Virus record (IMG/VR): IMGVR_UViG_3300044620_000288
Coordinates: 64,001-86,241 of that record
DNA length: 22,241 nt
Origin: a virus
Reading direction: 5' to 3' (one strand)
Both the position numbers and the translations under genes were made by a program. The stretch's first letter is position 1, and each line of letters opens with the position of its first letter. Below the pieces are notes generated by a model that was not told where the DNA came from, made no database searches, and saw only the letters and a list, made by a program, of their open reading frames with translations. Shown here in pieces: positions 1-16,800 of the stretch.

Positions 1-3000
1 CAAGGAGGCTTTGCTACTAAACAAGAAGCAGAAGATTATTTAAAAGAAGTAGAAGAAAAGTTAGGGGTAGAAGATAAAATCAACGCTAAGTATGATGCAG
101 AACTAGCTGCTTTAGAAGGACAACCTGCTCCTACACCAGAAGCTCCTGTAAACTTGAATGCAGAGTTGGTAAAGACGTTAACAGAAGAAAGAGATCAAAA
201 GCTTTCAGATCTGATGCCTCTCTACGGTACGGCTAGAAAGACTATGATGCAACTAGGGGATGAGGCTTTAGATCTAGGAGACCGTAATATTTTAGCAGAT
301 CCTGTTAAGTATTTAGAAGGTCGCATTGCACAAGGGGAATATAGTTTACAGCAAAGTATAGATAGGTTAAAAGCACTTGATACTAATAATCCTGATAATG
401 CTAAGGAAGCTAAAAACTTACAACGTTATATTGATACAGAAAAAATTGTTTTAGGAAAGACATATCCTAAACTTGAACAGATAAAAGCTGTAGTAGCTGA
501 GTATAATGATAAGATGAGTAGAATAGGAGAAACTCCTACACCTGCTGCACAATCTTATGACAACAAAGGAACCACTGGGCCTAGCACAGACTTCCGTGTA
601 GTTGCTAAAGGTGAGCAGAAGGAAGACAAGATGGATGACCTAGACTTAGCTGAGTTTAAGAAATGGCATGCCGCTAATGTTCCTGGTATTCCTTACGAGA
701 TATTAGAAAACATTGTTCGTAGAAACCCAGACATTACAGCTTGGGGTGTATTTGAGAATGGTGTTGCTAAGTTCTACAGAAGTGCTACACGTGGTACAGA
801 ATATCATGAGGTGTTCGAGGGTATATGGAAAGGTTTTCTTTCTCCTGGTGAAAGACAAGACTTATTAAATGAGTTTAGAAGTCAAGCTGGTACCTTCAAA
901 GATAGAGCTAGTGGGCGTGATGTTGAATATGCTGCTGCTACAGATACAGAGGCTAAGGAAAGAATTGCTGATGACTTTGCTGATTTCAGAGTGGGTAAAC
1001 TTCCTGTTAGAAGCTTGGGTGACTTGATTATCAGATTCTTCAGATCTATCATGAACTTCTTTAAGAATTTCAATGCTAAACCTACACTTAAAAAACAATT
1101 GTTTGAAGCAATTGATTTAGGTAAGTTTAAGGAGAGTGTTCTTCCTGATACAGTGAAGAATGAGGCTGCTGCATATAGAGAGATTGAAGGACTGTCTGAA
1201 CAACAAGCTCAGAAGTTTGTAGAAGATATGACAGCAAGGGTTGCTGGTCTAGTCTTCCTCAAGGCAAAGAAGTATTTGTACACTCCTCAAAAGCTTACAA
1301 GTAAGCAAATCTTTGGAGAGATAGAAGAGATGTATCTAAGGGAAGGTCAAACTCCAGGATGGAATGGTGTAAACAAACGCACTAAGCTTGGAGATGGTCG
1401 CTGGGAAGCTCTTGTACAAAGAACAAAAGAAAAGCTACGCATACTAGGTGTTACATTTAACGAGGATGGTATAATCAAACTTAATGGAGAAGACACCAAT
1501 AAGAATGACTATGCTCCTGAGGCGTTCACTGTAGACATTAAGAAAGGTGCGTCGTTTGATGTTAAGTTTACACTTGCTACTCTGTTCAAGGCTAAGGCTA
1601 TGGACCAGAGCAATACACTGAACCTAGAAATGCCTGATGCTCAGATTGATGCAGAGGTATTAGGATATAAACTTCTCAACTTCAGTACAGCATTTGCTAC
1701 ACTGCTTGAGAGACTATCTAACACTAGTGGAGTGAACAACATGACAGACAAGCTATTAGAGCTTGCAGCAAATGATGCTGATTATGTTCGTATGTTTACA
1801 CGCCTAGGTGGTAAGAAAGACAAATCTATTCCATACAAAGACTTCAAGGCTGAGGACTGGAAGTTCTTCATTAGCTTCACACAAACCTTTACAAGACAGA
1901 GACCTGATGCAATGGTACAGCGTGTTGCTGGTGGTGAGACATTTACCACTCCTGCAAATGTACAAACTGCTGCTAGACAACAAGTTGACACATGGGTGAC
2001 CAACATGAAGGTGTTGTCTAGAACAAATAAAGGAGCTATTGTATACAATAGTGCTACACAAACTTATAAGGCTAATACAAAGAAGCTTAAGGATATGCCT
2101 ATTGGCACTTCTAAGCAGATGATAGAATTCCTAAATGAGATTGGTGTTACATTTGATTCAGACACATACAAGAAGCTAAAGAGCTATGGTGGAGATAAGA
2201 GTCAAAAGAATCAGTTTGCTGCTGCTGTAAAAGATATCCGTGCCTTCTTACAAGACACTGATGACCTTCTTACAGTGACTGGTCAAACTCTAGGCATCAC
2301 TACACAACTAAACACACTTGGTCGTCTATACATAAATGCAAACAATCCTAACCAAGACATCACATATTTTGGTATCGAGAGGAAGAGGATGCAAGCATAC
2401 ATTGATAACAACACTGCATCAGTGTTTGAGAATGAGTTTAATGAGGCTACCACTCTGGATGAGCTATTAGAAAAGCGTCCTGAGCTACAGGATATATTCT
2501 CCACTGGCGCTCAAATACTTAAGAAGGGTGGACTTTATTTTGACAAGGATGGTAACAGAATTAGAGAGATTAAAGTGATGACCATTCAGGGTGTAGAGAA
2601 TAGTGATGAGTCTAAGAGTAAAGGTATTTCTAGACTTGGTCTAGGAGAGCGTTTCTCTCTTGAAATAAATGAGAACCTAAACGGTAACTTCTATATTCTT
2701 ATTCCTGCAGATAGTTCTACAGAATGGATGATGAATGTTGGTAACCAAATCAGCTACCAAGAGTTTGCTGATGGTAAAGCCTGGAACAAAATCTATTCCA
2801 TCTACAAGGGTTATCTGATGGATGACATTGCTCTAGCACGTGATTTCAAGAATCGTGGTAAGCTGAACAATGTTAATGCAAGAGCTAAAGAGTTACGTTT
2901 CTTTAATGATATCCTTCGTCCTAAGACACTAGAGAAACTAAACAGCATGATAGCTGATAAGTCAGTTTCTATGGAGGAGATTGAGAAATATGTAAACGAG

Positions 3001-6000
3001 AACCAAGAATCAATCAACCAAGATGTTGCTGGTTTCTTAGAAGGTATTACAGACACTACATTTAACACTCTTAAAGACAATGATCAAATTGTTCCTATTC
3101 AGGAAGGTTGGACATGGGATAGTCTGGACAATACATTTGCTCGTAAGAACAATATTAATAAAACCAAACCTATCATAGAAGACGTTCTGAAGCAAGTGTT
3201 GCTATTCAGAACTGTTAACTATACAATCAATAACATTGAATATCACAAGATAATATTCGGTGACCCACTTCAGTTCTCTACAGAGAAGGGTAAGTTTGAT
3301 GAGACCAAGCGTATCAAGAGCTTCCTATCTCCACGTAGAACAACATTTGATGTTGCTGAATTTGATAACTTCTTAAATGACAATCTGAATGAGGTGGCTG
3401 GTATTGCACTTCAACCTCCTAAAGATGACAGACCTGCTGACCCTGGTTACCATAACCACAAAGCTTACACAAGAACTGTAACATTTGCAGATCCTAAAAT
3501 AGCTGGTGCATTAGCAAACATCATTCCTGCGTATGCAGACATTAAAGAAGCTGATGCTGCCTCTTGGTTAATGGATACAACATTCAGAGAGATTAAGAAT
3601 AAGAACGGTCAATGGACTGATGAGGCTGAAGATTTCCACCAATGGCAAATGGCTAACACAAGAAAGAAGCTGGCTGCTAAAGGTGAATACACATATGCTA
3701 GCTCTGAGCTAAAAGCGTATGATGAAAAGCTCACATCTACACCTTCTCCTAAATACACATTAGAGATATTGAAACCTATTGTGTCTGGTGTTAAATACAA
3801 CTCAAACAACATCAACCTGGTGCTAGACAAGTTCTCTCAGATGCCTATCTACTACAGTATGGTGGAAGGAACTACTCTAGAGAAGTTATATATACAGATG
3901 TGGAAACAAGGATATGGTTATGCAATTGTAGAATCAGGAAGAAAGGTGGGAGCTGAAGGCTTACATTCTATCTACAATCCTAATGGTACATTTAATGAGG
4001 AAGCATTTAACAACTTTGTTGATGTTCCTTGGAAAGCATACGGTATCCAGGTGGAGAATATATATGATGAGGGTAAAGAACAAACTCGTGGTTCTCAGTC
4101 TACCAAGTTGATTAGCATTGACTTATTTGCTAACGGTGAGGTGTTTGGAGCTACAGGTGCACGTGCTGAATACATTAAGAATCTATACAAGAAGAATGTT
4201 AAAGACCTAGACAGAATGCATGCCAATGCTTATAATAACCTACTTAAAAAGCTTGGTGTTGTAGACAATGGTCAAGGATTTACTCTTGAAGATAAACAAG
4301 CGTTGTCTGAAGTGTTAGTGTATGAGATGTTCCGTAGAGAGCTCTCTGAGAATGCTAAAGACACTGTTAGACTTAATGAGGAAGATGAGTTCAGAATTCC
4401 TTTTGAGGCATCTCCATCTTATGTACAAATCAGAAACATCATCTACTCAATGGTTGAGAAAGCTATTCTCTCTCCTAAGATGGGTGGTAAGCCATTAGTT
4501 CAGGCTCCTGTAACCATGTGGGAGAATGCTGAGAAAGGCAGAAGTCTGGTTCAAAAGACTAAAGATGGATGGAAGAAGATATCTAGAGAAGAGTATGAGG
4601 CACTAGAGGATAGTGAGAAGAAGAAGGTGCGCATGACTAGTGACACACTCAAGTTCTATACAAAAGATAAGCCATATATGGAAGTGATGCTTCCACATTG
4701 GTTTAAAGATAAGCTTGCTGCTAAGAAGTTTAAAACTGACCAGGAAATACTTGATTACATCAATAAAAGTCCTGACGGTGCTAAGATTCTTAGAGGTATT
4801 GGTTTCCGTATTCCTACACAGTCTTTGTCTTCAATAGACTCATTTAAGGTGGTAGGGTTCCTACCTCAATATATGGGAGATACTGTTATAGTTCCTACAG
4901 AACTAGTTACCAAGTCAGGATCTGACTTTGACATAGATAAACTCAATACCTATTTAAGAAACGTATATGTAGATGCTACAGGCAACCTTAGACTTGTTAA
5001 ATACAATGGTTCTGAAGAAGCTACAAAACAATTCTTTACAAAGGTGTATGAAGACACCATCCAAACTGAGATTGACAGAATAGATAAGTTTGAAGACTTC
5101 AGAGACAGAATGTTCTCTGTGTTGATAGATGTTGAGGACTTAACAGACTTCTCTTCAGAATCTGTAAACGCAGCAATAGATGAGCAAGATGTTGACTTCT
5201 TCTATGATAACTTAAACCTATTCAAAGAAATTATAAAGCAAGCTGCTGATGCAAATCTTCCTGCTAGTGAATACATTGCACAACAGGTTGAGAAGCTGGC
5301 AGATAAGAAAACCAAACTCACTAAGAAGATCTTTAACGAGAAGCTTAAGAATGAGTTTGTAGAAGATATGTATAAGCGCTCCCTCGAGAATGAATACTAT
5401 GATTCTTTTGAAGAGTTGCTTACACTTCCTGAGAACTTCAATCGTCTCATCAGCCCTGTGGGTGATGGTGGCTTGAAAGAAATTGCTACAGAGATTGAAG
5501 ACCTATTAGGTGAGAAAGAGGTTGATGTTAAGAACAAGATCATCAACCCTAACTACATGACCACTTTGAGACACGCCTTCATAACTGCTAAGGCATGGGT
5601 GGGTATTGGTGCTGTAAACATTACCAACCACTCTCTATCTCAGAAGGTTACAGTGATTATGGATCCTGAGAAGATAAAGAACTCTCCTGCATTTGACCAG
5701 AAGTTCTTAGGTGACGGTGGTATTCTACTACCTCACAACAAGGTGACTGTTAACGGTAAGGAGTACATATCTATGTCTGGTGTACTAGATGCAGATGGTA
5801 AACTTTACATCTCTGATGGTTTGTCTGGATATATTACATCATTTGTGGATGTGGCTAAAGATCCATACATCATGAAGGTGATTAGAAGTACAAAGGCTGT
5901 TGGTACATTTATGGTGATGCAAAGAATGGGTGTTCCTATTCGTACAGCAGCTCTGTTCATGAACCAACCTATCATCAGAAAATACTTAGAACTTGTAGAA

Positions 6001-8289
6001 GGAACAGGAGCTCGTGGATTATTTGGTCGCAAGAACATGTCTACTATCATGGACAGATTCCCTGTTAAAGAAGGAGATGTTGCAGAAGTGGCTGATACTA
6101 TTGATGTTGAAAATCTTGCAGAAAACATCCGTGAGTTTGCAGAAAAAGGAAAGCTGAGCACCCTCAAGAAGAATGCTGAGCAACAACTTATATTCCAACA
6201 GTTCTTGAGACTGGCTAAGATGGCTGATTACAACTTTAAGTTTACACAGGCTATCAACTATGACACTAGTAAGTTCAAGAGTGCAGATGCTTTAAGCAAG
6301 AAGGTTATGAAAACTGACCTGGCTGCAGAGAATAACATCTTCACATCTCCTACAGAGGTGCTTGATAACTCACACATTGGAAACCAGAAGAAAATCTTAG
6401 GATTGTCTGTGGATGCTACGGGTGCCATCTTTGTATTAGACCAAGACAGATTTAGAGCTATCACAGATAAGATACTTGATCAATACAAGCAAAGAGAGTT
6501 TATAGCTGAAGATGATTATGATCGTATCTCTAATAAGGTGAGAGCATCGTTCCTAGACTATGTTATACAAACTAGAACAGGACTGAACGCTTCTATCAAA
6601 CCTTTGTTGATTGATGCTAACACATCTGTAGCTACACGTCTAGCTGAAGCTAAGACATTGTATGCCAATGAGTTACCTATCCTTAGACAACTTGAGGTGA
6701 GATTTAATAGAGAGAACGGTATACACACAGTGATGCTAATGGCTAACGTAAAGGATGCTGCTAGTGAGAATATGTACATCGGTATGATGAGAGAGCTTAG
6801 AAACAATCCTAAGACTAACCAACTGTACAAAGATTTAGTTACACTTTCCATCCTTCAGGGTACATACCAAACAGGTGTGTCTATCAAGAACATTATTCCT
6901 ATTGAAGACTACAGTGCTGTTGTAGCTCCTGTAATTTCAGGCTTGAGAGTGACAGAAGATATGGATGCATTCGCTGAAGGAATGTTCCAGCGTAATAACT
7001 GGGATGATAACATGGTGTTCTATCCTTTGAATGAGGTGTTCTTTAGAACTCTTACAGTAGATCCTAGGTATCAAGACATTGCTGGTGAGGCTGTGTATGA
7101 ATACTTCTCTCCTGTTTTCCCAAATAATGATGCTTTAAAAATCAAATCTAGTCAAAGAATAATCTTATATTTGGACGAGAATTATGATAGTGAAGCAATT
7201 GGTAGCGGGGACTATGTAAAGATAAAGAGAGTGGTGGCTAATAAAAACGGTGGTGAACTTGTAGATGTTCTGAAGGGTGTGGGTCTTTCCAAAAAAGCAT
7301 ACGCGATAATGAAGAAAGCTGGTAATCCAATGATTACACAAGTACTTGGTTATCAGAAAGTTAAATACCCTGGAACAGATGTTCCTGTAACTGTAGGTGT
7401 AAAGAACTACAAAGGAGATATTGAAAACAAGTATGTATATAAACTCATCAACCTTTATGGTGAGGGTTCATTTGGCTCAGAGTATTACACAGACTTCAAA
7501 CCTTCTGTAGTGGATAACAACACTGTTACAATTAAGAATGAGATTCCTGATAGCGATATTGTAGCTGCTTTATCTCAGGATATTAAGGTGGATGATATTA
7601 TGCAACAGTCTGCTACACCTACAAATGATGTGAAAGTGGACATGGGAAGACAAGCTGAAATAGAACCTGGACTTGGGCTCACTAAAGAAAACTTTGAATT
7701 CCCTGAGGGTTATGATGAAGCCATGGCTGCAGCTGCTGTAACAGGTCTATCTTCTGAAACAAAGATTAACATCTATGCTGGTACAGGGGAGAATGCTGAG
7801 TTAAGTAACTTTGCTAAGAGACCTTTTATATTAGGAGATGATATAACATATCCTACAGTAGAACATGCTTTTCAATTAGAAAAATTACAATATAGCAATG
7901 CTTATACAGATGAGCAAAGGGAAGCCATAATAAGAGATATGATTACTAAATCTGCTGCACAAGTAAAAGCATTTGGTAAAACTATCAAAGGATTGAATGT
8001 AAAAATGTGGAATGAAGATGCTTCTGAAATAATGAAAGATTTAATAAAACAATCTTTTCAAGCAAACCCAGCAGCTCTTCAAAAATTATTGGCTACAGGA
8101 AATGCTGAACTTACCCATACACAAGATAATACTAAATGGGGTAAAGAGTTCCCTAAACTACTTATGGAGGTTAGAAAGGAGCTAAGACCTCAAGCACCTG
8201 CTAAACCTGAAGCAACTCAAATAGACTTGTTTGATACCAATGATGAAAACCTTGATGGGGCAGATGAATCTAACCCATGTAAACGATAA
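1..8289 (+). CDS. Giant crAss-like virion RNA polymerase fused to C-terminal NADAR domain (5' partial)
   Basis: Likely a virion-packaged single-chain DNA-dependent RNA polymerase that transcribes early phage genes after injection. The frame is open from base 1, so the apparent TTG start at 154 is not credible. The gene begins left of the window; 2762 residues are visible, numbered here from base 1. Domains in order: a charged N-terminal region with Pro-rich linkers; a zincin-like segment with HEVFE at 269-273, where the second metal His of HExxH is Glu; helical regions; then the polymerase core. There RIPTQ at 1603-1607 recalls the RxPT motif of beta' subunits, followed by the catalytic DFDID with D1642, D1644 and D1646. 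A NADAR/YbiA-like domain spans about 2590-2729, with SNF, YPTVEHAFQ (E2621, H2622, Q2625), TGNAEL and W2713. The acidic tail carries QIDLF. phi14:2 gp66 is about 2180 residues, so this one is long. It lies five bases before the second giant gene. The polymerase call rests on the DFDID context; the NADAR call is strong. Confidence 0.82.
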   Translation, partial: QGGFATKQEAEDYLKEVEEKLGVEDKINAKYDAELAALEGQPAPTPEAPVNLNAELVKTLTEERDQKLSDLMPLYGTARKTMMQLGDEALDLGDRNILADPVKYLEGRIAQGEYSLQQSIDRLKALDTNNPDNAKEAKNLQRYIDTEKIVLGKTYPKLEQIKAVVAEYNDKMSRIGETPTPAAQSYDNKGTTGPSTDFRVVAKGEQKEDKMDDLDLAEFKKWHAANVPGIPYEILENIVRRNPDITAWGVFENGVAKFYRSATRGTEYHEVFEGIWKGFLSPGERQDLLNEFRSQAGTFKDRASGRDVEYAAATDTEAKERIADDFADFRVGKLPVRSLGDLIIRFFRSIMNFFKNFNAKPTLKKQLFEAIDLGKFKESVLPDTVKNEAAAYREIEGLSEQQAQKFVEDMTARVAGLVFLKAKKYLYTPQKLTSKQIFGEIEEMYLREGQTPGWNGVNKRTKLGDGRWEALVQRTKEKLRILGVTFNEDGIIKLNGEDTNKNDYAPEAFTVDIKKGASFDVKFTLATLFKAKAMDQSNTLNLEMPDAQIDAEVLGYKLLNFSTAFATLLERLSNTSGVNNMTDKLLELAANDADYVRMFTRLGGKKDKSIPYKDFKAEDWKFFISFTQTFTRQRPDAMVQRVAGGETFTTPANVQTAARQQVDTWVTNMKVLSRTNKGAIVYNSATQTYKANTKKLKDMPIGTSKQMIEFLNEIGVTFDSDTYKKLKSYGGDKSQKNQFAAAVKDIRAFLQDTDDLLTVTGQTLGITTQLNTLGRLYINANNPNQDITYFGIERKRMQAYIDNNTASVFENEFNEATTLDELLEKRPELQDIFSTGAQILKKGGLYFDKDGNRIREIKVMTIQGVENSDESKSKGISRLGLGERFSLEINENLNGNFYILIPADSSTEWMMNVGNQISYQEFADGKAWNKIYSIYKGYLMDDIALARDFKNRGKLNNVNARAKELRFFNDILRPKTLEKLNSMIADKSVSMEEIEKYVNENQESINQDVAGFLEGITDTTFNTLKDNDQIVPIQEGWTWDSLDNTFARKNNINKTKPIIEDVLKQVLLFRTVNYTINNIEYHKIIFGDPLQFSTEKGKFDETKRIKSFLSPRRTTFDVAEFDNFLNDNLNEVAGIALQPPKDDRPADPGYHNHKAYTRTVTFADPKIAGALANIIPAYADIKEADAASWLMDTTFREIKNKNGQWTDEAEDFHQWQMANTRKKLAAKGEYTYASSELKAYDEKLTSTPSPKYTLEILKPIVSGVKYNSNNINLVLDKFSQMPIYYSMVEGTTLEKLYIQMWKQGYGYAIVESGRKVGAEGLHSIYNPNGTFNEEAFNNFVDVPWKAYGIQVENIYDEGKEQTRGSQSTKLISIDLFANGEVFGATGARAEYIKNLYKKNVKDLDRMHANAYNNLLKKLGVVDNGQGFTLEDKQALSEVLVYEMFRRELSENAKDTVRLNEEDEFRIPFEASPSYVQIRNIIYSMVEKAILSPKMGGKPLVQAPVTMWENAEKGRSLVQKTKDGWKKISREEYEALEDSEKKKVRMTSDTLKFYTKDKPYMEVMLPHWFKDKLAAKKFKTDQEILDYINKSPDGAKILRGIGFRIPTQSLSSIDSFKVVGFLPQYMGDTVIVPTELVTKSGSDFDIDKLNTYLRNVYVDATGNLRLVKYNGSEEATKQFFTKVYEDTIQTEIDRIDKFEDFRDRMFSVLIDVEDLTDFSSESVNAAIDEQDVDFFYDNLNLFKEIIKQAADANLPASEYIAQQVEKLADKKTKLTKKIFNEKLKNEFVEDMYKRSLENEYYDSFEELLTLPENFNRLISPVGDGGLKEIATEIEDLLGEKEVDVKNKIINPNYMTTLRHAFITAKAWVGIGAVNITNHSLSQKVTVIMDPEKIKNSPAFDQKFLGDGGILLPHNKVTVNGKEYISMSGVLDADGKLYISDGLSGYITSFVDVAKDPYIMKVIRSTKAVGTFMVMQRMGVPIRTAALFMNQPIIRKYLELVEGTGARGLFGRKNMSTIMDRFPVKEGDVAEVADTIDVENLAENIREFAEKGKLSTLKKNAEQQLIFQQFLRLAKMADYNFKFTQAINYDTSKFKSADALSKKVMKTDLAAENNIFTSPTEVLDNSHIGNQKKILGLSVDATGAIFVLDQDRFRAITDKILDQYKQREFIAEDDYDRISNKVRASFLDYVIQTRTGLNASIKPLLIDANTSVATRLAEAKTLYANELPILRQLEVRFNRENGIHTVMLMANVKDAASENMYIGMMRELRNNPKTNQLYKDLVTLSILQGTYQTGVSIKNIIPIEDYSAVVAPVISGLRVTEDMDAFAEGMFQRNNWDDNMVFYPLNEVFFRTLTVDPRYQDIAGEAVYEYFSPVFPNNDALKIKSSQRIILYLDENYDSEAIGSGDYVKIKRVVANKNGGELVDVLKGVGLSKKAYAIMKKAGNPMITQVLGYQKVKYPGTDVPVTVGVKNYKGDIENKYVYKLINLYGEGSFGSEYYTDFKPSVVDNNTVTIKNEIPDSDIVAALSQDIKVDDIMQQSATPTNDVKVDMGRQAEIEPGLGLTKENFEFPEGYDEAMAAAAVTGLSSETKINIYAGTGENAELSNFAKRPFILGDDITYPTVEHAFQLEKLQYSNAYTDEQREAIIRDMITKSAAQVKAFGKTIKGLNVKMWNEDASEIMKDLIKQSFQANPAALQKLLATGNAELTHTQDNTKWGKEFPKLLMEVRKELRPQAPAKPEATQIDLFDTNDENLDGADESNPCKR
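7768..8187 (+). other. NADAR (YbiA-like) domain within the giant RNA polymerase gene
   Basis: This domain lies in the C-terminal part of the giant polymerase. It shows the family landmarks in order: a beta strand with NIYAG, then SNF, YPTVEH followed by FQ, a Lys two residues on, a W before an IM helix, an F..N helix, TG...L.H.Q, W at 8137-8139, and a closing LLMEVR. NADAR domains were predicted to act in NAD/ADP-ribose metabolism, and members paired with DarT-like toxins remove ADP-ribose from guanine in DNA. YbiA itself is linked to N-glycosidase activity on riboflavin intermediates. Which reaction applies here is unknown. Lys codons in this domain are AAA in 12 of 14 cases, unlike the polymerase core. 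Confidence 0.85.
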
Positions 8290-8294
8290 TTAAT

Positions 8295-11200
8295 ATGGCG
8301 TGTAAAGTTAAATATGTAGAACAAGAGTATAGGAAGAACTATCCTGAACTGGCTGATAAACTTAATCAGAAGTATACAGACATTTGGAAGGATATTACCG
8401 ACTCTAATCTATTTAGAAAGTATGGTGATGGTCCAACGGCTACTTATTTGCTTTCCAAAGCTGGCACTGAACAGCAACAGAAGCAGGTTAACTTTATTGC
8501 CAAACTGAATGAGAAGTATGAAACTCCTCAGGGCAAGTCAATTATACAAGGTGCTCCTACAAAGGCTGGGAACAATACAAAGATATTAGTGAATGTCCAT
8601 CCTCTGGCACAAGGAGAGTGGAGCAAGCTACAAAAACCTGAACAGGGAACATTGTTCCAATTGCGTGGTGGTACCATGGGATCTAATGCATCTCCTAAGA
8701 CCATTGCAATGATTAAGGACTTCCTTACACGCATTGGTGTTAGCACTAAGAATGTTAATGGTATTGTAGTGAATGGTGTTCAGATGAATGCAAACGCTGC
8801 AGCCATTGTAACACAGAAGCTTATTCAGGTGGTGAATGGCATGGAAGCTAGAGCTCTTCCTGAGGAAGCTATGCACTTTGCTGTAGAAATCATCAAGCAA
8901 ACTAATCCCAAGCTTTACCAAAAACTACTTAACGAAATCAATAGCTACCAAATACTAAGAGATACATTTGCTGAGTATAGCAACAATCCTCTTTATCAAA
9001 CAGAAGATGGTAGACCTGATGTATTGAAAATCAAAGATGAGGCTATTGCCAAGGTGCTTTCTGAAACAATCATCTATCAAGGTGAGAACAATAAAGAAAG
9101 TATGGAGAAACTTGCTAAGGTGCAGACCTGGTGGGGACAAATGTTGGAATGGCTCAAAGGTCTGTTCTCTAGAAGTGGATTTGATCAAGCAGCTATGGAC
9201 ATCATCTCTGGAAAAGAAATTGGTACAGCTGATGACATCCGTGCTAATGAGAATGAGATATTCTTACAGCAGTCTAAACAAGAACAGATATTTAATACCA
9301 TTAAGTCTGGCTCTATGGCTGTTGAAAAGCGTGGAGATGGTTACTATGTAAATGGTAAGAAAGTTCCTAAACGTGTAACAGATCTTGTTAATGACTGGTA
9401 TGAGCGTAGGTTTAGAGAGAAGAAACTAACAGACAGTGAGTTCCAGAAGGCTATTGACTCAATGAAAGCTGACAAGGGTACAGCTGGACATATTGATTTG
9501 GAGGAAGCATTTAAAGTGTATGTAGATCCTCAGACAGGACTAATGAGACCTGAGCCTTTAAATGATGATGCTTACGTATCTCAGCTTAACAAAGATGACC
9601 GTAAATATTACATCACTCTAAGAGATAATCTTAAGAAGCGTTTGGACTCATTTGGTCCTAATGCAAGATTCCTTGCTGAAGCTATAGTGTATGATGCTAA
9701 GAGACCGGGGGGTGGTATTGCTGGTACAATTGACTTCATAGCTATTACAGAAGATGGTAAAGTGAACATGCTTGACTGGAAGTTTACCAACCTCAATACA
9801 AATAAGTATGATGATATTCCTTGGTATAAAGTGAACGCATGGCGTACACAGATGAACCAGTACAAGTTAATCCTCAAGACAGCATATGGTATTAAGGAAG
9901 ATCAGTTTGATCAAACCAGAATGATTCCTATACAGGCTATCTACACAGAGGCTGATTATAAAAAAGAAATCTTACCACGCCTATCTGGTATTAAAATAGG
10001 AGATGTAGATATAAAGAACATCGAGGAAGACTATTTACTTCCTGTTGGTCTAGAGGAAGAAGTTACAGGAGAAGAAGAACTAGATGACTTGTTGGCTAAG
10101 CTCAACCGCATCTACAAAAGAATGTCTGAGAAAAAGGCAACACCTGGTGAAAAACTTACTAAGGCTGAACAACTTAACTCTTTGTACACAGCTATTCGTC
10201 ACCTTCAGATGAGAAGAGATGCTAAGTCTCTTGTATACCAAGCTCGTCTTATCAACAAACAAATTGAGGACATATTCACAAAGTTTGAAGATAAGTTTAA
10301 AGGTAAAGATCCATTAAGCTTTACAGAGAAAGAGCGTAGTGATTTTACAAAAGAAATGGCAGATGGACTAGAAGCACTAGAAACATATGCTGATTTGGCT
10401 ACAGATCTTGACTTCTTGTTCAGAGGTGAGCTTGATAAAGCTACAGAAGATGTTAAGAGTGAAATATACAAAGCTAGTTCTGCAGCTAAACTATTGAGAT
10501 CTAGATTGTTGAAACTGGACAAGTCTTTCACTAATGACTTCATTGCCCTATCTGAAAAAGTGAAAGGAGCTAAAGAAGGAGAGAAAACTGTTACAGGTGC
10601 AACTAAGTGGTTTAGTAGTACAGCCACCTTGCAGATTAAAGCTGCACAGGTGTTATTCAGAAAAGCTAACCGTGCCTTCACTTATGCAGGTATGGACACA
10701 GCTGCAGAAAGTAGAAGACTTGCTGAGATAAAAACCAAATATGATGCTTGGGCTAAAGGAAAAGGTCTAACATCCAATAACTACTTTGACATCATTAGAA
10801 AGAAAGCTGATTCATATCAGAAGGAAGCAGATGCTCGTAAGAAAGCTGAGATGGAAGAGCTAAACAAAATGAAGCCTGAAATCTCTGAGGAATCATACAA
10901 GCAAGAAGTTGAGAAGATTAATCAGCGTTATGAGAATGCTATCAAGGATAAGAACCAATTGATTGATGAGTTTGATCCTCAGTTCTATTCAAAACTCAAC
11001 TCTGCTATAGCCCAGAAGGACTATGCATGGATTAGAGATAATATAGATAAAGCTGAATATGCTGAGCACTTACGTAAGAAACTAGATGAAGAAGAGCAAC
11101 GCATATTTGATAAACCTCGTATTGGTACAGAGGAAGACATTGCTAATCAGATCAAGACAGAACTGAGAAAAGCAAAAGAACTATACAACATTACTACAGA

Positions 11201-13409
11201 CCAATCTATAGGATGGTTACTGTATGATGAGATAAAGCAGTTTCCAAATAAGGAAACTTGGGAGTCTAAGGAATGGAAAGAACTTACAAAGAAGGATGCT
11301 TCTGGTAAATTCATTAACCAACCAGCTATTGACTTCTATAATTATATCCGTGAGAGAAACGAACTATACAGAGACCTTGGCTACATTAATGCTAAGCAGT
11401 CTAGGGTGTTCCTACCTTGGGTGAGAAAAGGACTTACAGAAAAGCTTGTGCTTGGTGGTAATGTCACTGTTGGTGAACAGTTCCTCAGGACAATATCTAT
11501 TGATGAGGGAGATGTGGGATATGGACAACGTGATGCTATTAGTGGTAAACTAATAGACAAGGTGCCTATCTATTTCACTAGAGAGTTAGAAGGAGATGTT
11601 AGTACAGACCTTTTTAGAACAATGTCTTTATACAATGAGTTTGCTCTCAGGTATAAATACCTAAGTGATATTGAGGACCAGGTGCTAGCATTAAATAGAC
11701 TTGAGAGAAACAAGAGATCTATTGCTACATCATTCTGGGGAAAGACAGAATATAAAGATGGAGAACTCCAATACAACCCTGACAATAGTGAGAATGCTAA
11801 GATTATAGAAGACATGACCAAGGCTATTGTGTATCAGCAGAAGTTTATTCAGAGCGATACATTTGATATGGTGCTTGGAAAGATTGGTACCGTAGGAGAA
11901 AGTATAAATAAAAAGCTTGGATTCAAGCTTATACCTGAAGGACTTGCTGGAAGACAAATCAGTATAAATAAGAGTATTGATGCTCTGAATACCACCTTCC
12001 AATTACAGGCTTTAGGACTGAATGTATTATCATCCATGTCCAACTTGTTTGGTGGTACAACACAATCCTTGATTAATTCAGGTAGATATTTCACTAAGGG
12101 AGACTTTGTGAAAGCTGAGGGTAAGCTCCTATGGAATAAACTTGGAGGAGAAGATGCTAAGAAATTTATAGCAGCTAAGAACTTCTTCATGCCTTTCACA
12201 GAAAACTACAACAGAGATTTGGCTAAGAACCTGTCTATGAGTAGAGTGAGTCAGGAGAGCATTCAAGACTTCCTCATGGTACTCATGAGAAACTCTGACC
12301 GTGCTGTACAAGCTGTTAACTTTTATGCCTTCCTTGAGAATAGTATAGTGGTTGATGGTCAAGTTGTTAATGTTAGAGAATACCTCAGACAACAACCTGA
12401 GTACATTGGTAAGATGTATGATGGAACCAGAGAGGAAAGAAAATCTAGATCTGACAAGTTTGAACAAGATGTACAGAAGCTTATTGAGGAAAAGGGTGTA
12501 ATGAAACTTGGTAAGATTGAGGGAGATGAATTTGTAATCCCTGGCGTAGACCAGAAGTCTGAAAGTGTTGTTGAGTTCAGAAGGAAGGTGCAACAAGTTA
12601 CAGCTGATGCTCTTGGTAACATGTCAGAAGCTAACAAACGTCTCATCAACCTAAATGTGTATAGCAATTCATTCATGGTGTTCAAAAACTGGATCCCTCG
12701 TCTGATTGATGTACGTTTTGGTAATCTTAAATACAACTCTGCCTCAGACGCTTATGAATGGGGTAGAATGAGAATGCTGTTTAGATTTGTAGCTACAGAT
12801 ACCATTAAGTCTTTAAACAGTTTAAAGAGTTCTCTCCTAGGAAATGATGACCAGTTTATTCAACAGGTGCGTAATCTGTATGAAAAAAAGAAAGCTGACT
12901 ATGAGAAGGACACTGGTAAAGAGCTAGAAATGACTGAGGATGAATTCATTGACTTGGTTAGAAGGAACATAAAGAACCAGCTTTTAGACGTTCTCATTTT
13001 CATTGCTCTATTGGGTATCTACTTTGGACTCAAGGCAAACATGCCTGATGATGACGAAGACCCAGCTGTAAGAAACAGATGGAAGTTCATGCTCAAGGCT
13101 ACAGACAAGTTCTCAGATGAGATTGCCTACTTCTACAACCCTACCAACATATCTAAGTTGGTGTCTACAGGTATATTCCCATCCTTAGGACTGATAGAAA
13201 ACTATAAGAAAACCCTGACTAACTTTGGAAAGGAGATGTTTGGATTGGCAATAGGAGATGAGGAATTGGTAGAAGAGAACCAGGTTATCAAGTATTTGAT
13301 GAAGTCTTTTCCTATCACTAGCCAAGGAGCAGCCCTTCTTCCTATGTTCTCTCCTGAGACAGCTAAAGACCTAGGAATCAAGATGCCTTCTCAGTCAGGA
13401 ATTAGATAA
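8295..13409 (+). CDS. Giant phage virion/cargo protein with RecB/Cas4-type PD-(D/E)XK nuclease domain
   Basis: A 1704-residue protein, probably packaged and ejected with the polymerase encoded just upstream (5-base gap, same strand). Domains: an N-terminal Cys-containing segment; a zincin-like segment with EEAMH at 190-194, where the first His of HExxH is Glu; then a PD-(D/E)XK nuclease at about 350-570. The nuclease shows KGTAGH with H399, E462, D480 in GTID, D494-W-K496, and Q519-x3-Y523, the full motif order of the RecB/AddB/Cas4 branch. Nothing in this set is missing, so it looks catalytically competent. Charged helical and coiled-coil regions follow, clearest at about 820-970. One hydrophobic segment (about 1563-1579) lies near the C-terminus, followed by an acidic stretch. 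ATG 8295 fits the tandem spacing. The nuclease call is firm. Packaging and ejection are inferred from crAss-like gene order and size; no polymerase motif was seen in this protein. Confidence 0.75.
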   Translation: MACKVKYVEQEYRKNYPELADKLNQKYTDIWKDITDSNLFRKYGDGPTATYLLSKAGTEQQQKQVNFIAKLNEKYETPQGKSIIQGAPTKAGNNTKILVNVHPLAQGEWSKLQKPEQGTLFQLRGGTMGSNASPKTIAMIKDFLTRIGVSTKNVNGIVVNGVQMNANAAAIVTQKLIQVVNGMEARALPEEAMHFAVEIIKQTNPKLYQKLLNEINSYQILRDTFAEYSNNPLYQTEDGRPDVLKIKDEAIAKVLSETIIYQGENNKESMEKLAKVQTWWGQMLEWLKGLFSRSGFDQAAMDIISGKEIGTADDIRANENEIFLQQSKQEQIFNTIKSGSMAVEKRGDGYYVNGKKVPKRVTDLVNDWYERRFREKKLTDSEFQKAIDSMKADKGTAGHIDLEEAFKVYVDPQTGLMRPEPLNDDAYVSQLNKDDRKYYITLRDNLKKRLDSFGPNARFLAEAIVYDAKRPGGGIAGTIDFIAITEDGKVNMLDWKFTNLNTNKYDDIPWYKVNAWRTQMNQYKLILKTAYGIKEDQFDQTRMIPIQAIYTEADYKKEILPRLSGIKIGDVDIKNIEEDYLLPVGLEEEVTGEEELDDLLAKLNRIYKRMSEKKATPGEKLTKAEQLNSLYTAIRHLQMRRDAKSLVYQARLINKQIEDIFTKFEDKFKGKDPLSFTEKERSDFTKEMADGLEALETYADLATDLDFLFRGELDKATEDVKSEIYKASSAAKLLRSRLLKLDKSFTNDFIALSEKVKGAKEGEKTVTGATKWFSSTATLQIKAAQVLFRKANRAFTYAGMDTAAESRRLAEIKTKYDAWAKGKGLTSNNYFDIIRKKADSYQKEADARKKAEMEELNKMKPEISEESYKQEVEKINQRYENAIKDKNQLIDEFDPQFYSKLNSAIAQKDYAWIRDNIDKAEYAEHLRKKLDEEEQRIFDKPRIGTEEDIANQIKTELRKAKELYNITTDQSIGWLLYDEIKQFPNKETWESKEWKELTKKDASGKFINQPAIDFYNYIRERNELYRDLGYINAKQSRVFLPWVRKGLTEKLVLGGNVTVGEQFLRTISIDEGDVGYGQRDAISGKLIDKVPIYFTRELEGDVSTDLFRTMSLYNEFALRYKYLSDIEDQVLALNRLERNKRSIATSFWGKTEYKDGELQYNPDNSENAKIIEDMTKAIVYQQKFIQSDTFDMVLGKIGTVGESINKKLGFKLIPEGLAGRQISINKSIDALNTTFQLQALGLNVLSSMSNLFGGTTQSLINSGRYFTKGDFVKAEGKLLWNKLGGEDAKKFIAAKNFFMPFTENYNRDLAKNLSMSRVSQESIQDFLMVLMRNSDRAVQAVNFYAFLENSIVVDGQVVNVREYLRQQPEYIGKMYDGTREERKSRSDKFEQDVQKLIEEKGVMKLGKIEGDEFVIPGVDQKSESVVEFRRKVQQVTADALGNMSEANKRLINLNVYSNSFMVFKNWIPRLIDVRFGNLKYNSASDAYEWGRMRMLFRFVATDTIKSLNSLKSSLLGNDDQFIQQVRNLYEKKKADYEKDTGKELEMTEDEFIDLVRRNIKNQLLDVLIFIALLGIYFGLKANMPDDDEDPAVRNRWKFMLKATDKFSDEIAYFYNPTNISKLVSTGIFPSLGLIENYKKTLTNFGKEMFGLAIGDEELVEENQVIKYLMKSFPITSQGAALLPMFSPETAKDLGIKMPSQSGIR
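9330..10000 (+). other. PD-(D/E)XK nuclease domain within the second giant gene
   Basis: Motifs in order: KGTAGH (9474-9491), an acidic E in LAEAIVYD, GTID with D at 9732-9734, then after a beta strand DWK (9774-9782), and QMNQY as the QxxxY motif. This is the arrangement of the RecB-like single-strand/double-strand DNA nucleases, including Cas4. The boundaries are approximate. Confidence 0.78.
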
Positions 13410-13889: not shown

Positions 13890-16800
13890 ATGAACGTACT
13901 TCCTAACATACTACAGTATGGAAGTAGTGGCACATCTGGTACTTCAGGTGTGTCACAGGCTTCTGACTGCGTAGATAATTTACCAGTTTATATAAATCCA
14001 GTAGTGGCTTCCGTAGAGCCACCACCTAGTGAATTATCATCTAGTCAGCCCTCCTTTTTGTCTAGACTATATGGTAGGGCTCCTGTTCAGGAGACTCCTC
14101 CTATTATTATTAGTGAGCCACTCATCTATGTGGCTCCTGCTCCAATCGATCCAAACAATAATCAAAGCTTTTTATCTAAGCTCCTTGGTGGAGACTGTAG
14201 AAATACGTCTTTCACAAACAGCCCTGTCATATGTTCTGCTGATGCCTGTCCTATTATATTAGACGCCACTTGTGTGTTCTATGAAGGATACAATCTCATC
14301 TATACAGGGATTAGTGCTAATGACAACCTTCAGACAGCTCTTGAGAAGATAGAGGAAACCTTTGCCAATAGTTTGGCAGGAAGCTCTGGTACGTCTGGCA
14401 CCTCAGGTAGTTCAGGTACATCTGGCAGTTCTGGGACTGCTGGAACAACAGGTACTTCAGGTACAACTGGTACAAGCGGAACCTCAGGAACCACAGGTAC
14501 AAGTGGAAGTTCTGGGACTAGTGGCACTACTGGGACCAGTGGTACAACGGGTACATCAGGTACAACTGGCACTAGCGGTACGTCAGGTACTAGCGCTACA
14601 TCTGGTACATCAGGCACTGCAGGAACTAGTGGCACCTCAGGTACTACGGGTACAAGTGGTACATCAGCTACTGATGGTACAGGAGGTACGAGTGGTACGT
14701 CTGGTACAGATGGAACTTCTGGCTCAAGTGGAAGTTCTGGTACATCGGGCACTTCAGGAACCACTGGAACAAGTGGTACAACTGGCACCTCAGGAACGAG
14801 TGGTACTGCTGGCTCTTCAGGTACTAGCGGTACAACAGGAACGAGTGGTAGTTCAGGTAGTACAGGAACATCAGGGACATCTGGCACTACAGGTACTAGT
14901 GGTACGTCTGGCTCTAGTGCTACAGACGGAACAGGGGGTACATCAGGTACTTCAGGTACGTCAGCAACTAGCGGATCAAGTGGGACAACAGGAACCTCAG
15001 GAAGCTCAGGTACTGCAGGTACTTCTGCAACTAGTGGAAGTTCAGGCACTTCTGGAACATCAGGTACTGACGGAACAGGAGGATCAAGTGGTACTTCTGG
15101 CACTTCTTCTACCTCAGGAACATCAGGAAGTTCTGGAACTGATGGATCAGAAGGAACATCTGGTACAAGTGGTACGAGTGCCACAAGTGGTACTTCTGGA
15201 TCTACAGGGACCTCTGGAACGAGCGGTAGCACAGGAACATCAGGTAGTAGCGGTACAAGTGGCACCTCTGCAACAGATGGCACTGGTGGTACATCAGGAA
15301 CAAGTGCAACGAGCGGAACCAGTGGAACCAGTGCTACATCAGGTACGTCTGGTACAGCAGGGACAACAGGTACATCTGGATCTTCAGGTTTGAGTGGTGA
15401 TAGATTTGCCACAACATCAACATCAACATATACATTAGGAGCTGTAGGTTCTTCAGGAACTATTACAGTGGGAACAGGACTAGCATACACTGTGGCCCAA
15501 TCTATCATTATTGCCTACGATGCTAATAATCACGTAGAAGCTGAGGTGACTTCATACAACCCATCGACTGGCTCATTGAGCTTTACTGTATTTAGACTTA
15601 CAGGGTCTGGTACATACAGTCTTTTCCAAGTGAATCTAGATGGTGCAACAGGTGGTGATGGTTCTAGTGGATCATCAGGCACTAGTGGTACGTCCGCAAC
15701 AGCTGGTACCTCTGGTACAACAGGTACATCGGGTTCAAGTGGCACGTCTGCCACATCAGGAAGTTCAGGTACCACTGGCACAAGTGGAACAGGTGGAACT
15801 TCTGGAACCAGCGGCACTACAGGCACATCTGGCTCAAGCGGAAGTAGTGGATCTTCAGGAAGTAGTGGCTCTAGTGGAACCTCTGCCACCTCTGGTACAA
15901 GTGGAACATCTGGAACAAACGGTAGTGGAGGCACTAGTGGAACAAGTGGGTCATCTGGTAGCTCAGGATCGTCTGGTACAGCTGGTACAGCAGGTAGTCC
16001 TGGTACGTCTGGAACTAGTGGTAGTTCTGGAACAGGAGGATCGTCTGGTACATCAGCAACCTCTGGAACATCAGGTTCAAGCGGAACCTCAGGTAGTAGT
16101 GGTACTACGGGAACTTCTGGTACCACGGGAACGTCTGGTACTAGTGGTACCTCAGGAGCAACTCAAGCTTTCTCTAATGTTCTAACTATGAACAGTGGTG
16201 GAGCTGGAGATGCTTCAGGAACAACATATAATGGTTCTGCTTCTAGAACTCTTTCTTATAATACAATAGGTGCTGCAGCTTCTGCTAATTTTAAAGTATT
16301 AGGAGCAAATGTTAATTATGATGTAAATAGATCAATAAAAACATCAGGTGGGGGTCTTGCTATATATTCAGGATATTCTACAGGTACTAACAGACCAACT
16401 ACATATGATATTTCTGCTCAATTTGCTGCAACAAATGATATAGCTTTTGAGATAGCTGCCGATTGGTTAAGCGGTTCAGGACCTACACTTTATGCTAGAT
16501 CTCTTCGTGACTGTTGTCAGGATTGGTCGTCTTGGGTAACTATTCTTACTTCTTTAAATTACAATTCCTATTCACCAACGTTAACAGGTGGTGGAGCTTC
16601 AGGAACATGGGGCATCAATATTACAGGTAACGCTGAAACTGTAGATGGATTTAGTGCATCTCAGTCTACTATTGCAAATGGAATTGTAGTAAGAGACCCT
16701 AGCGGATATATCTTTGGTAGCTATATCAACATGACTGATGACGGTAATCCGGGAGGAGGTACATCAATCACTTCATTTATTACTAAGCAAGGAGATAATT

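Follow-up and report, generated by a model that had tools for sequence, protein, structure and literature searches.

A NADAR domain fused to a crassvirus virion RNA polymerase: a candidate mobile payload on ejected proteins

What is a NADAR domain doing at the end of an RNA polymerase that a phage may carry into its host? The question is raised by the right-hand end (64001–86241) of an 86,241-bp viral contig, a stretch of 22,241 nucleotides referred to here as the window. The contig is crassviral: it encodes a Crass_capsid major capsid protein (E=1.6e-26), a P22-like portal, and a phage terminase, along with a DNA polymerase, a primase, and a DnaB-like helicase. Crassviruses are among the commonest gut virus groups. 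Most counter-defence proteins of phages are made only once the genome is inside the cell. A hydrolase attached to an injected polymerase would be active ahead of all phage transcription, and such time-zero action is important against defences that signal or alter DNA within minutes. The fusion also provides a direct way to test which NAD-based defences of the hosts operate that early. We lean, with moderate confidence, towards the view that the NADAR domain on the crassvirus virion RNA polymerase is catalytically intact and serves as an interchangeable payload, which is ejected and acts at time zero against an ADP-ribosylation defence.

The fused protein and its active site

The window begins inside a giant ORF of 4475 codons (contig 58862–72289), which starts 5.1 kb upstream. 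The C-terminal 2762 residues of its product are encoded at window positions 1–8289 on the plus strand, with the stop codon at 8287–8289. A sequence-only reading of this DNA had joined a DFDID-type core and a complete-looking NADAR domain in one frame. The frame is open throughout and the fusion is confirmed; the left edge placed at 4900 coincides with no natural boundary, a minor correction. Residues 1154–2000 match the virion RNA polymerase of phi14:2 (PDB 6vr4; phmmer E=4.1e-26), and the homologous region (3460–6000, plus strand) contains the DFDID catalytic motif at 4924–4938, within GSDFDIDK, which is kept in relatives. A DFDxD core homologous to phi14:2 gp66 identifies the protein as a Crassvirales virion RNA polymerase. 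It shares the DFDID core and giant size with phi14:2 gp66 and crAss001 gp50, as well as a terminal cysteine and a gene position immediately before the next large cargo protein. It differs from them in two ways. NADAR is absent from crAss001 gp50 and from the phi14:2 gp66 match, and the upstream g067-like part is fused to the polymerase in the window, unlike in phi14:2.

The NADAR domain occupies 7756–8187 (plus strand), as delimited by Pfam, by an AlphaFold2 (AF2) model with its structural matches, and by the exact range of a DNA match to a related locus described below. The Pfam match (E=1.5e-13) is above the gathering score, and the domain also matches PHROG 1017 (E=8e-20) and YbiA (2b3w, E=7.5e-9). 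The AF2 model has a mean pLDDT of 94.6 and recovers a YbiA-type NADAR fold, the strong structural matches being three solved NADARs: the ADP-ribose-bound 8bau (Z 17.8), YbiA (Z 14.8), and the G. lovleyi (Geobacter) protein (Z 9.6). The next best match reaches only Z 3.3. The domain is complete, as it had first appeared. A chance or spurious match is rejected on the Pfam, structural, and comparative evidence, and an assembly chimera is rejected because many independent contigs share the fusion.

NADAR catalysis uses a Glu, a Lys at a distance of seven residues from it, and a third residue that is Glu in YbiA, Asp in DarT1 antitoxins, and His in phage proteins (Schuller and colleagues, PMC11543638). 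The catalytic residues sought on the alignment are all present in the window: Glu (E37 of the modelled domain, 7861–7863), Lys (K44, 7882–7884), and His (H122, 8116–8118), all on the plus strand and all invariant among 56 aligned domains. The Glu and Lys, with their seven-residue spacing, are also found in 78 of 78 cellular NADARs. At the third position, in the last strand, His is found in 51 of 51 fused domains, and T4 gp30.3 has His in the same column, whereas 72 of the 78 cellular domains have Glu; the window domain therefore belongs to the phage class. T4 gp30.3 shares the Glu/Lys/His pattern, although it is the product of a standalone gene and is only ~21% identical to the window domain. 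The DarT1-associated antitoxins of the BC4488 type share the fold and the Glu/Lys pair, but they combine Asp at the third position (PMC11543638) with an adjacent DarT gene. The window domain has His, and a search of its contig for DarT found none, so a role as antitoxin to a phage-encoded DarT is rejected. The loop that leads from the WG motif to the last helix is longer in cellular NADARs and shortened in the window domain, a difference that counts against the payload reading. The ends of these domains are near-constant and the middle is variable; the variable middle may tune the substrate.

Movement of the NADAR cassette between virion proteins

The fusion was surveyed by scanning IMG/VR with the NADAR domain and by adding named phages, a sample that is NADAR-enriched by design. 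The same fusion, a NADAR and a DFDxD core in one frame, was found in 66 ORFs of public contigs (some of them near-duplicates), or 52 after dereplication. NADAR lies on the C-terminal side of the core in 43 of these and on the N-terminal side in nine, and its position ranges from 2015 residues before to 1511 residues after the catalytic motif. In locus L078 the DFDID motif is at residue 1427 and NADAR at 1468–1619, only 41 residues past the motif and inside the polymerase body. The fusion is also present in the named gut phages cr126_1, cr130_1, and cr272_1. In cr126_1 gp003 (NC_055884) the NADAR is ~47% identical to that of the window and shares one ORF with the core; it is at the N-terminus, unlike the C-terminal domain of the window. 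In cr131_1, NADAR is found in a large ORF whose annotated start falls at the polymerase motif itself. TAG is read as sense in cr130_1, cr272_1, and cr131_1. The trait is patchy and most polymerases are without NADAR: when the scans were centred on the polymerase of the window, only five of ~90 relatives carried one. On a quick polymerase tree of the NADAR-enriched sample, at least 12 changes of NADAR presence are seen, all forced by well-supported branches.

NADAR has moved among polymerases as a unit with precise boundaries. Pairs drawn from 51 fused proteins are on average 50% identical in NADAR and 23.5% identical in the polymerase core, with no correlation between these identities (Spearman 0.04, Mantel p 0.30). 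For example, loci L034 and L089 have NADARs that are 90% identical on polymerases that are 28% identical; for the window and locus L030 the values are 73% and 24%. Compared by blastn, the 22-kb window and the 20-kb locus of L030 match only from 7756 to 8187 (77%, E=2e-93), which is exactly the NADAR domain. In protein, mean residue identity rises from 0.11 to 0.64 at ETKINIYAG and drops after EVRKELR. Inheritance of NADAR together with the polymerase is rejected, since the nearest polymerases are without NADAR and the identities are uncorrelated. The cassette is under purifying selection: dN/dS is 0.19 for the window and L030 and 0.13–0.46 over 11 pairs. Recombination anchors at the cassette ends are a weak explanation, as the ends are strongly conserved in protein and little at 4-fold sites, where identity at the N end (0.63–0.70) is only mildly above that over most of the middle (0.43–0.56). 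A Sak4-like annealing protein is encoded on the contig of the window and could contribute to cassette exchange. Elsewhere, a 3970-bp block (L087 15292–19261, L117 16478–20447) is 99.3% identical between loci with polymerases that share only 29% identity, which points to an exchange in the very recent past.

The three closest polymerases (L007–L009) are 83–86% identical to that of the window in their best segment, and no Pfam NADAR match was found anywhere on their contigs. They share with the window a slot between a linker (KVDD..QQS.TPT) and the C-terminus. In the window the linker preceding the cassette is at 7576–7755 (plus strand); its identity is ~0.10–0.18 among fused relatives, and its start is the same in the three neighbours. 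The slot contains an unrelated domain of ~110 residues in L007, nothing in L008, and a short unrelated stretch in L009. For the domain in L007, no family was found, nor a clear relative among the collected loci. If domains are exchanged exactly among highly divergent polymerases, the C-terminal slot in crassviruses would be worth searching for undiscovered anti-defence enzymes. A search for anti-CRISPR genes in this virus group is reported to have given no confident prediction (PMC7886860).

NADAR is carried by other virion proteins as well. The giant NADAR-bearing ORFs of L088 and L097 encode N4-type virion RNA polymerases (PHROG 2206, E=4e-274 and 0). The first of these also matches solved N4-type virion polymerases (E=7e-15), and the ORF of L113 resembles it. 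N4-type polymerases are single-subunit enzymes of the T7-like kind and are not related to those of crassviruses. In addition, the giant NADAR-bearing ORFs of L086 and L118 have matches to families of virion structural proteins. The common factor of the carriers is that they are ejected or virion proteins, and NADAR behaves as a mobile payload on ejected proteins.

Other domains accompany it. In the window, Pfam finds one effector domain beside the polymerase, and some relatives have several: L034 has NADAR, SLOG, and DUF7831, and L042 has NADAR and a 2OG-Fe oxygenase. An AlkB-like 2OG-Fe(II) oxygenase is the commonest companion, found in 10 of 48 NADAR-bearing C-terminal regions versus two of 63 polymerase-sampled regions. 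The corresponding counts are 6/48 and 0/63 for cpYpsA SLOG, 4/48 and 0/63 for a polyvalent-type ART, and 6/48 and 5/63 for an SF1 helicase. The apparent association of NADAR with AlkB-like, SLOG, and ART domains is only a lead, the counts being confounded by differences in region length and lineage between the two sets. The oxygenase module is present in L042, L045, L059, L070, L110, L114, L126, L139, and L147. In a comparison of modules, the oxygenase is common to polymerases less than 35% identical and is rarer than NADAR, and zincin peptidase- and ASCH-looking domains (recognized by eye) are likewise common to polymerases at that distance.

Several described systems resemble this arrangement in part. 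Iyer and colleagues (PMC9503650) described NADAR, Macro, and Nudix proteins that are packaged, as well as polyvalent virion proteins; according to them, the NADAR and SLOG domains of viruses typically stand alone unless they belong to RNA-virus polyproteins. In nidovirus polyproteins (PMC9503650; BFVD matches) NADAR shares one chain with an RNA-dependent RNA polymerase, as it does with a polymerase in the window, but these are RNA viruses in which the protein is expressed after entry and the polymerase is unrelated to that of the window. Polyvalent virion proteins (PMC5512222) are giant, ejected, and multidomain, and relatives of the window protein resemble them in carrying ART-PolyVal, SLOG, 2OG-Fe oxygenase, and helicase domains; that paper mentions neither NADAR nor crAss phages, and its available part does not describe domain-exact cassette exchange. 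Yutin and colleagues described large multidomain crAss transcription proteins, some with PDDEXK, and the available part of their text (PMC7886860) does not mention NADAR. The sequence-only reading had known of no described phage polymerase with a NADAR fusion. No description of a NADAR-crAss polymerase fusion was found in the open-access literature, but the GenBank record of cr126_1 (NC_055884) already labels its polymerase ORF 'DUF1768 domain-containing protein'.

Cysteines of the cargo proteins

The large cargo proteins have an unusual cysteine pattern, which covers phi14:2 (L199), crAss001 (L200), loci L007–L198, and the window. Complete polymerase ORFs are almost free of cysteine except that 104 of 108 have one within the last eight residues (expected, 0.2%), and 100 of 104 ORFs that follow the polymerase have one within the first ten. 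The single cysteine of the 4475-residue protein is residue 4473 (codon 8278–8280), in a C-terminal tail (8188–8286, plus strand) that ends in SNPCKR and is also found in L007 and L008. The next protein, of 1704 residues (8295–13409, plus strand), has a single cysteine at residue 3 (8301–8303) and by gene order holds the position of phi14:2 g065 and crAss001 gp49. The phi14:2 proteins contain one cysteine in g067 (its last residue), two in g066 (residues 3 and 2179 of 2180), and one in g065 (residue 3). Where parts are fused, as the g067-like and g066-like parts are into one chain in the window, the cysteine pair at the internal junction is missing. Correspondingly, an N-terminal cysteine is found in 13 of 14 polymerase ORFs that are separate genes versus five of 69 that are fused upstream (p=2e-10).

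From this pattern, proteins ejected one after another may be linked head to tail, either covalently or by docking. The links are perhaps disulfides, which the host cytoplasm would reduce. The fused NADAR domains, which are related to each other, are without cysteine in 49 of 49 cases, whereas 48 of 78 cellular NADARs contain it; the cysteine-free cassettes would fit passage as ejected cargo. In gut Oafivirinae the terminal cysteine is kept and the proteins are otherwise not cysteine-poor. The N4-type proteins of L088 (5915–19435, 4507 residues) and L097 (6353–18178, 3942 residues) have no cysteine at all. Tail types of the polymerase and head types of the next protein occur as matched pairs, for example PKEIGKLLKSIC with MATCPNINLDSWK, and the tail ADESNPCKR pairs with the head MACKVKYIEQEY. 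In L009 (12374–13270 and the following ORF) both tail and head are swapped relative to its close relatives L007, L008, and the window. The matched types are rejected as independent proof of docking, because both are adjacent on the DNA.

Delivery, substrate, and competing explanations

Under the preferred reading, the polymerase-NADAR chain would be packaged in the virion, threaded through the tail into the cell with the DNA, and refolded in the host. Delivery of the fusion at infection is plausible because homologues have been detected in virions: phi14:2 g065–g068 are annotated in the record as virion proteins detected by mass spectrometry, and crAss001 gp47, gp49, and gp50 are virion proteins (PMC10172136). 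Neither a NADAR-bearing crassvirus isolate nor virion proteomics of one was found, and NADAR could be cleaved off before packaging. Once inside, NADAR would work as an ADP-ribosyl N-glycohydrolase before phage genes are expressed and so counter an ADP-ribosylation defence of the host; the polymerase would mainly be its vehicle.

The most likely substrate would be ADP-ribose attached to guanine in phage nucleic acid; a soluble or other derivative of ADP-ribose would be nearly as likely. T4 gp30.3 strips ADP-ribose from guanosine in vitro and does not rescue E. coli from DarT1 (PMC11125620). From the shared residues and the analogy with T4 gp30.3, it is a fair inference that the window domain would hydrolyse guanine-ADP-ribose. 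DarT1 itself is a poor guess as the target, given this lack of rescue by a phage NADAR.

The strongest competitor, which we regard as fairly unlikely, is that NADAR, once injected, acts not on nucleic-acid adducts but on soluble immune signals or toxins made from NAD (cyclic ADPR variants, ADPr-1''P), which it would destroy. SLOG domains, which are linked to NAD-derived signals, accompany NADAR in six of the 48 regions counted above, and the failure of a His-class domain to rescue cells from DarT1 points the same way. Soluble NAD-derived targets are also predicted for most phage NADARs (Iyer et al., PMC9503650). On the other hand, the sole biochemical activity tested for the His class is on guanosine-ADP-ribose. 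The commonest companion is the AlkB-like oxygenase, and known enzymes of this type reverse base damage.

It is very unlikely that NADAR works with the polymerase, clearing ADP-ribosylated template bases ahead of transcription, as the sequence-only reading proposed. Repeated fusion to two unrelated types of virion RNA polymerase could be taken in its favour. However, NADAR may be N- or C-terminal of the core and varies widely in its distance from the catalytic motif, it is found on virion proteins of structural families, and most polymerases are without it. Such variable placement argues against a fixed mechanical partnership, and the variety of carriers looks like payload delivery. The first reading is supported for the NADAR call, the catalytic residues, and the fusion, and is not supported for template clearing; its other suggestion, neutralization of NAD-derived defence products, corresponds to the competitor discussed above. 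It is likewise very unlikely that NADAR, as a mere passenger, plays no part in infection or is cut off ahead of packaging, and spreads by recombination only: its patchy presence and the empty or different slot in close relatives would fit, but its catalytic residues are invariant, its dN/dS is well below 1, it was acquired repeatedly, and its cysteine depletion matches that of the rest of the cargo protein.

A broader generalization is possible, although we hold it as distinctly more doubtful than the payload reading for the window. Tailed-phage virion RNA polymerases may be delivery chassis for shared recombining cassettes, with NADAR a frequent one that jumps with domain-exact DNA ends between polymerases less than 30% identical and onto the N4 type, and the ejected proteins of crassviruses may be joined by their cysteines head to tail into one covalent train.

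Beyond the cargo genes, the window encodes at 13890–19553 (plus strand) a protein of 1887 residues with a long, collagen-like-looking Gly-Thr-Ser repeat region and repeated receptor-binding-type segments; judged by eye only, it is probably a tail fibre. A glycosyltransferase family 9 (heptosyltransferase-like) gene lies at the contig end (21172–22239, minus strand; Pfam E=4.5e-9).
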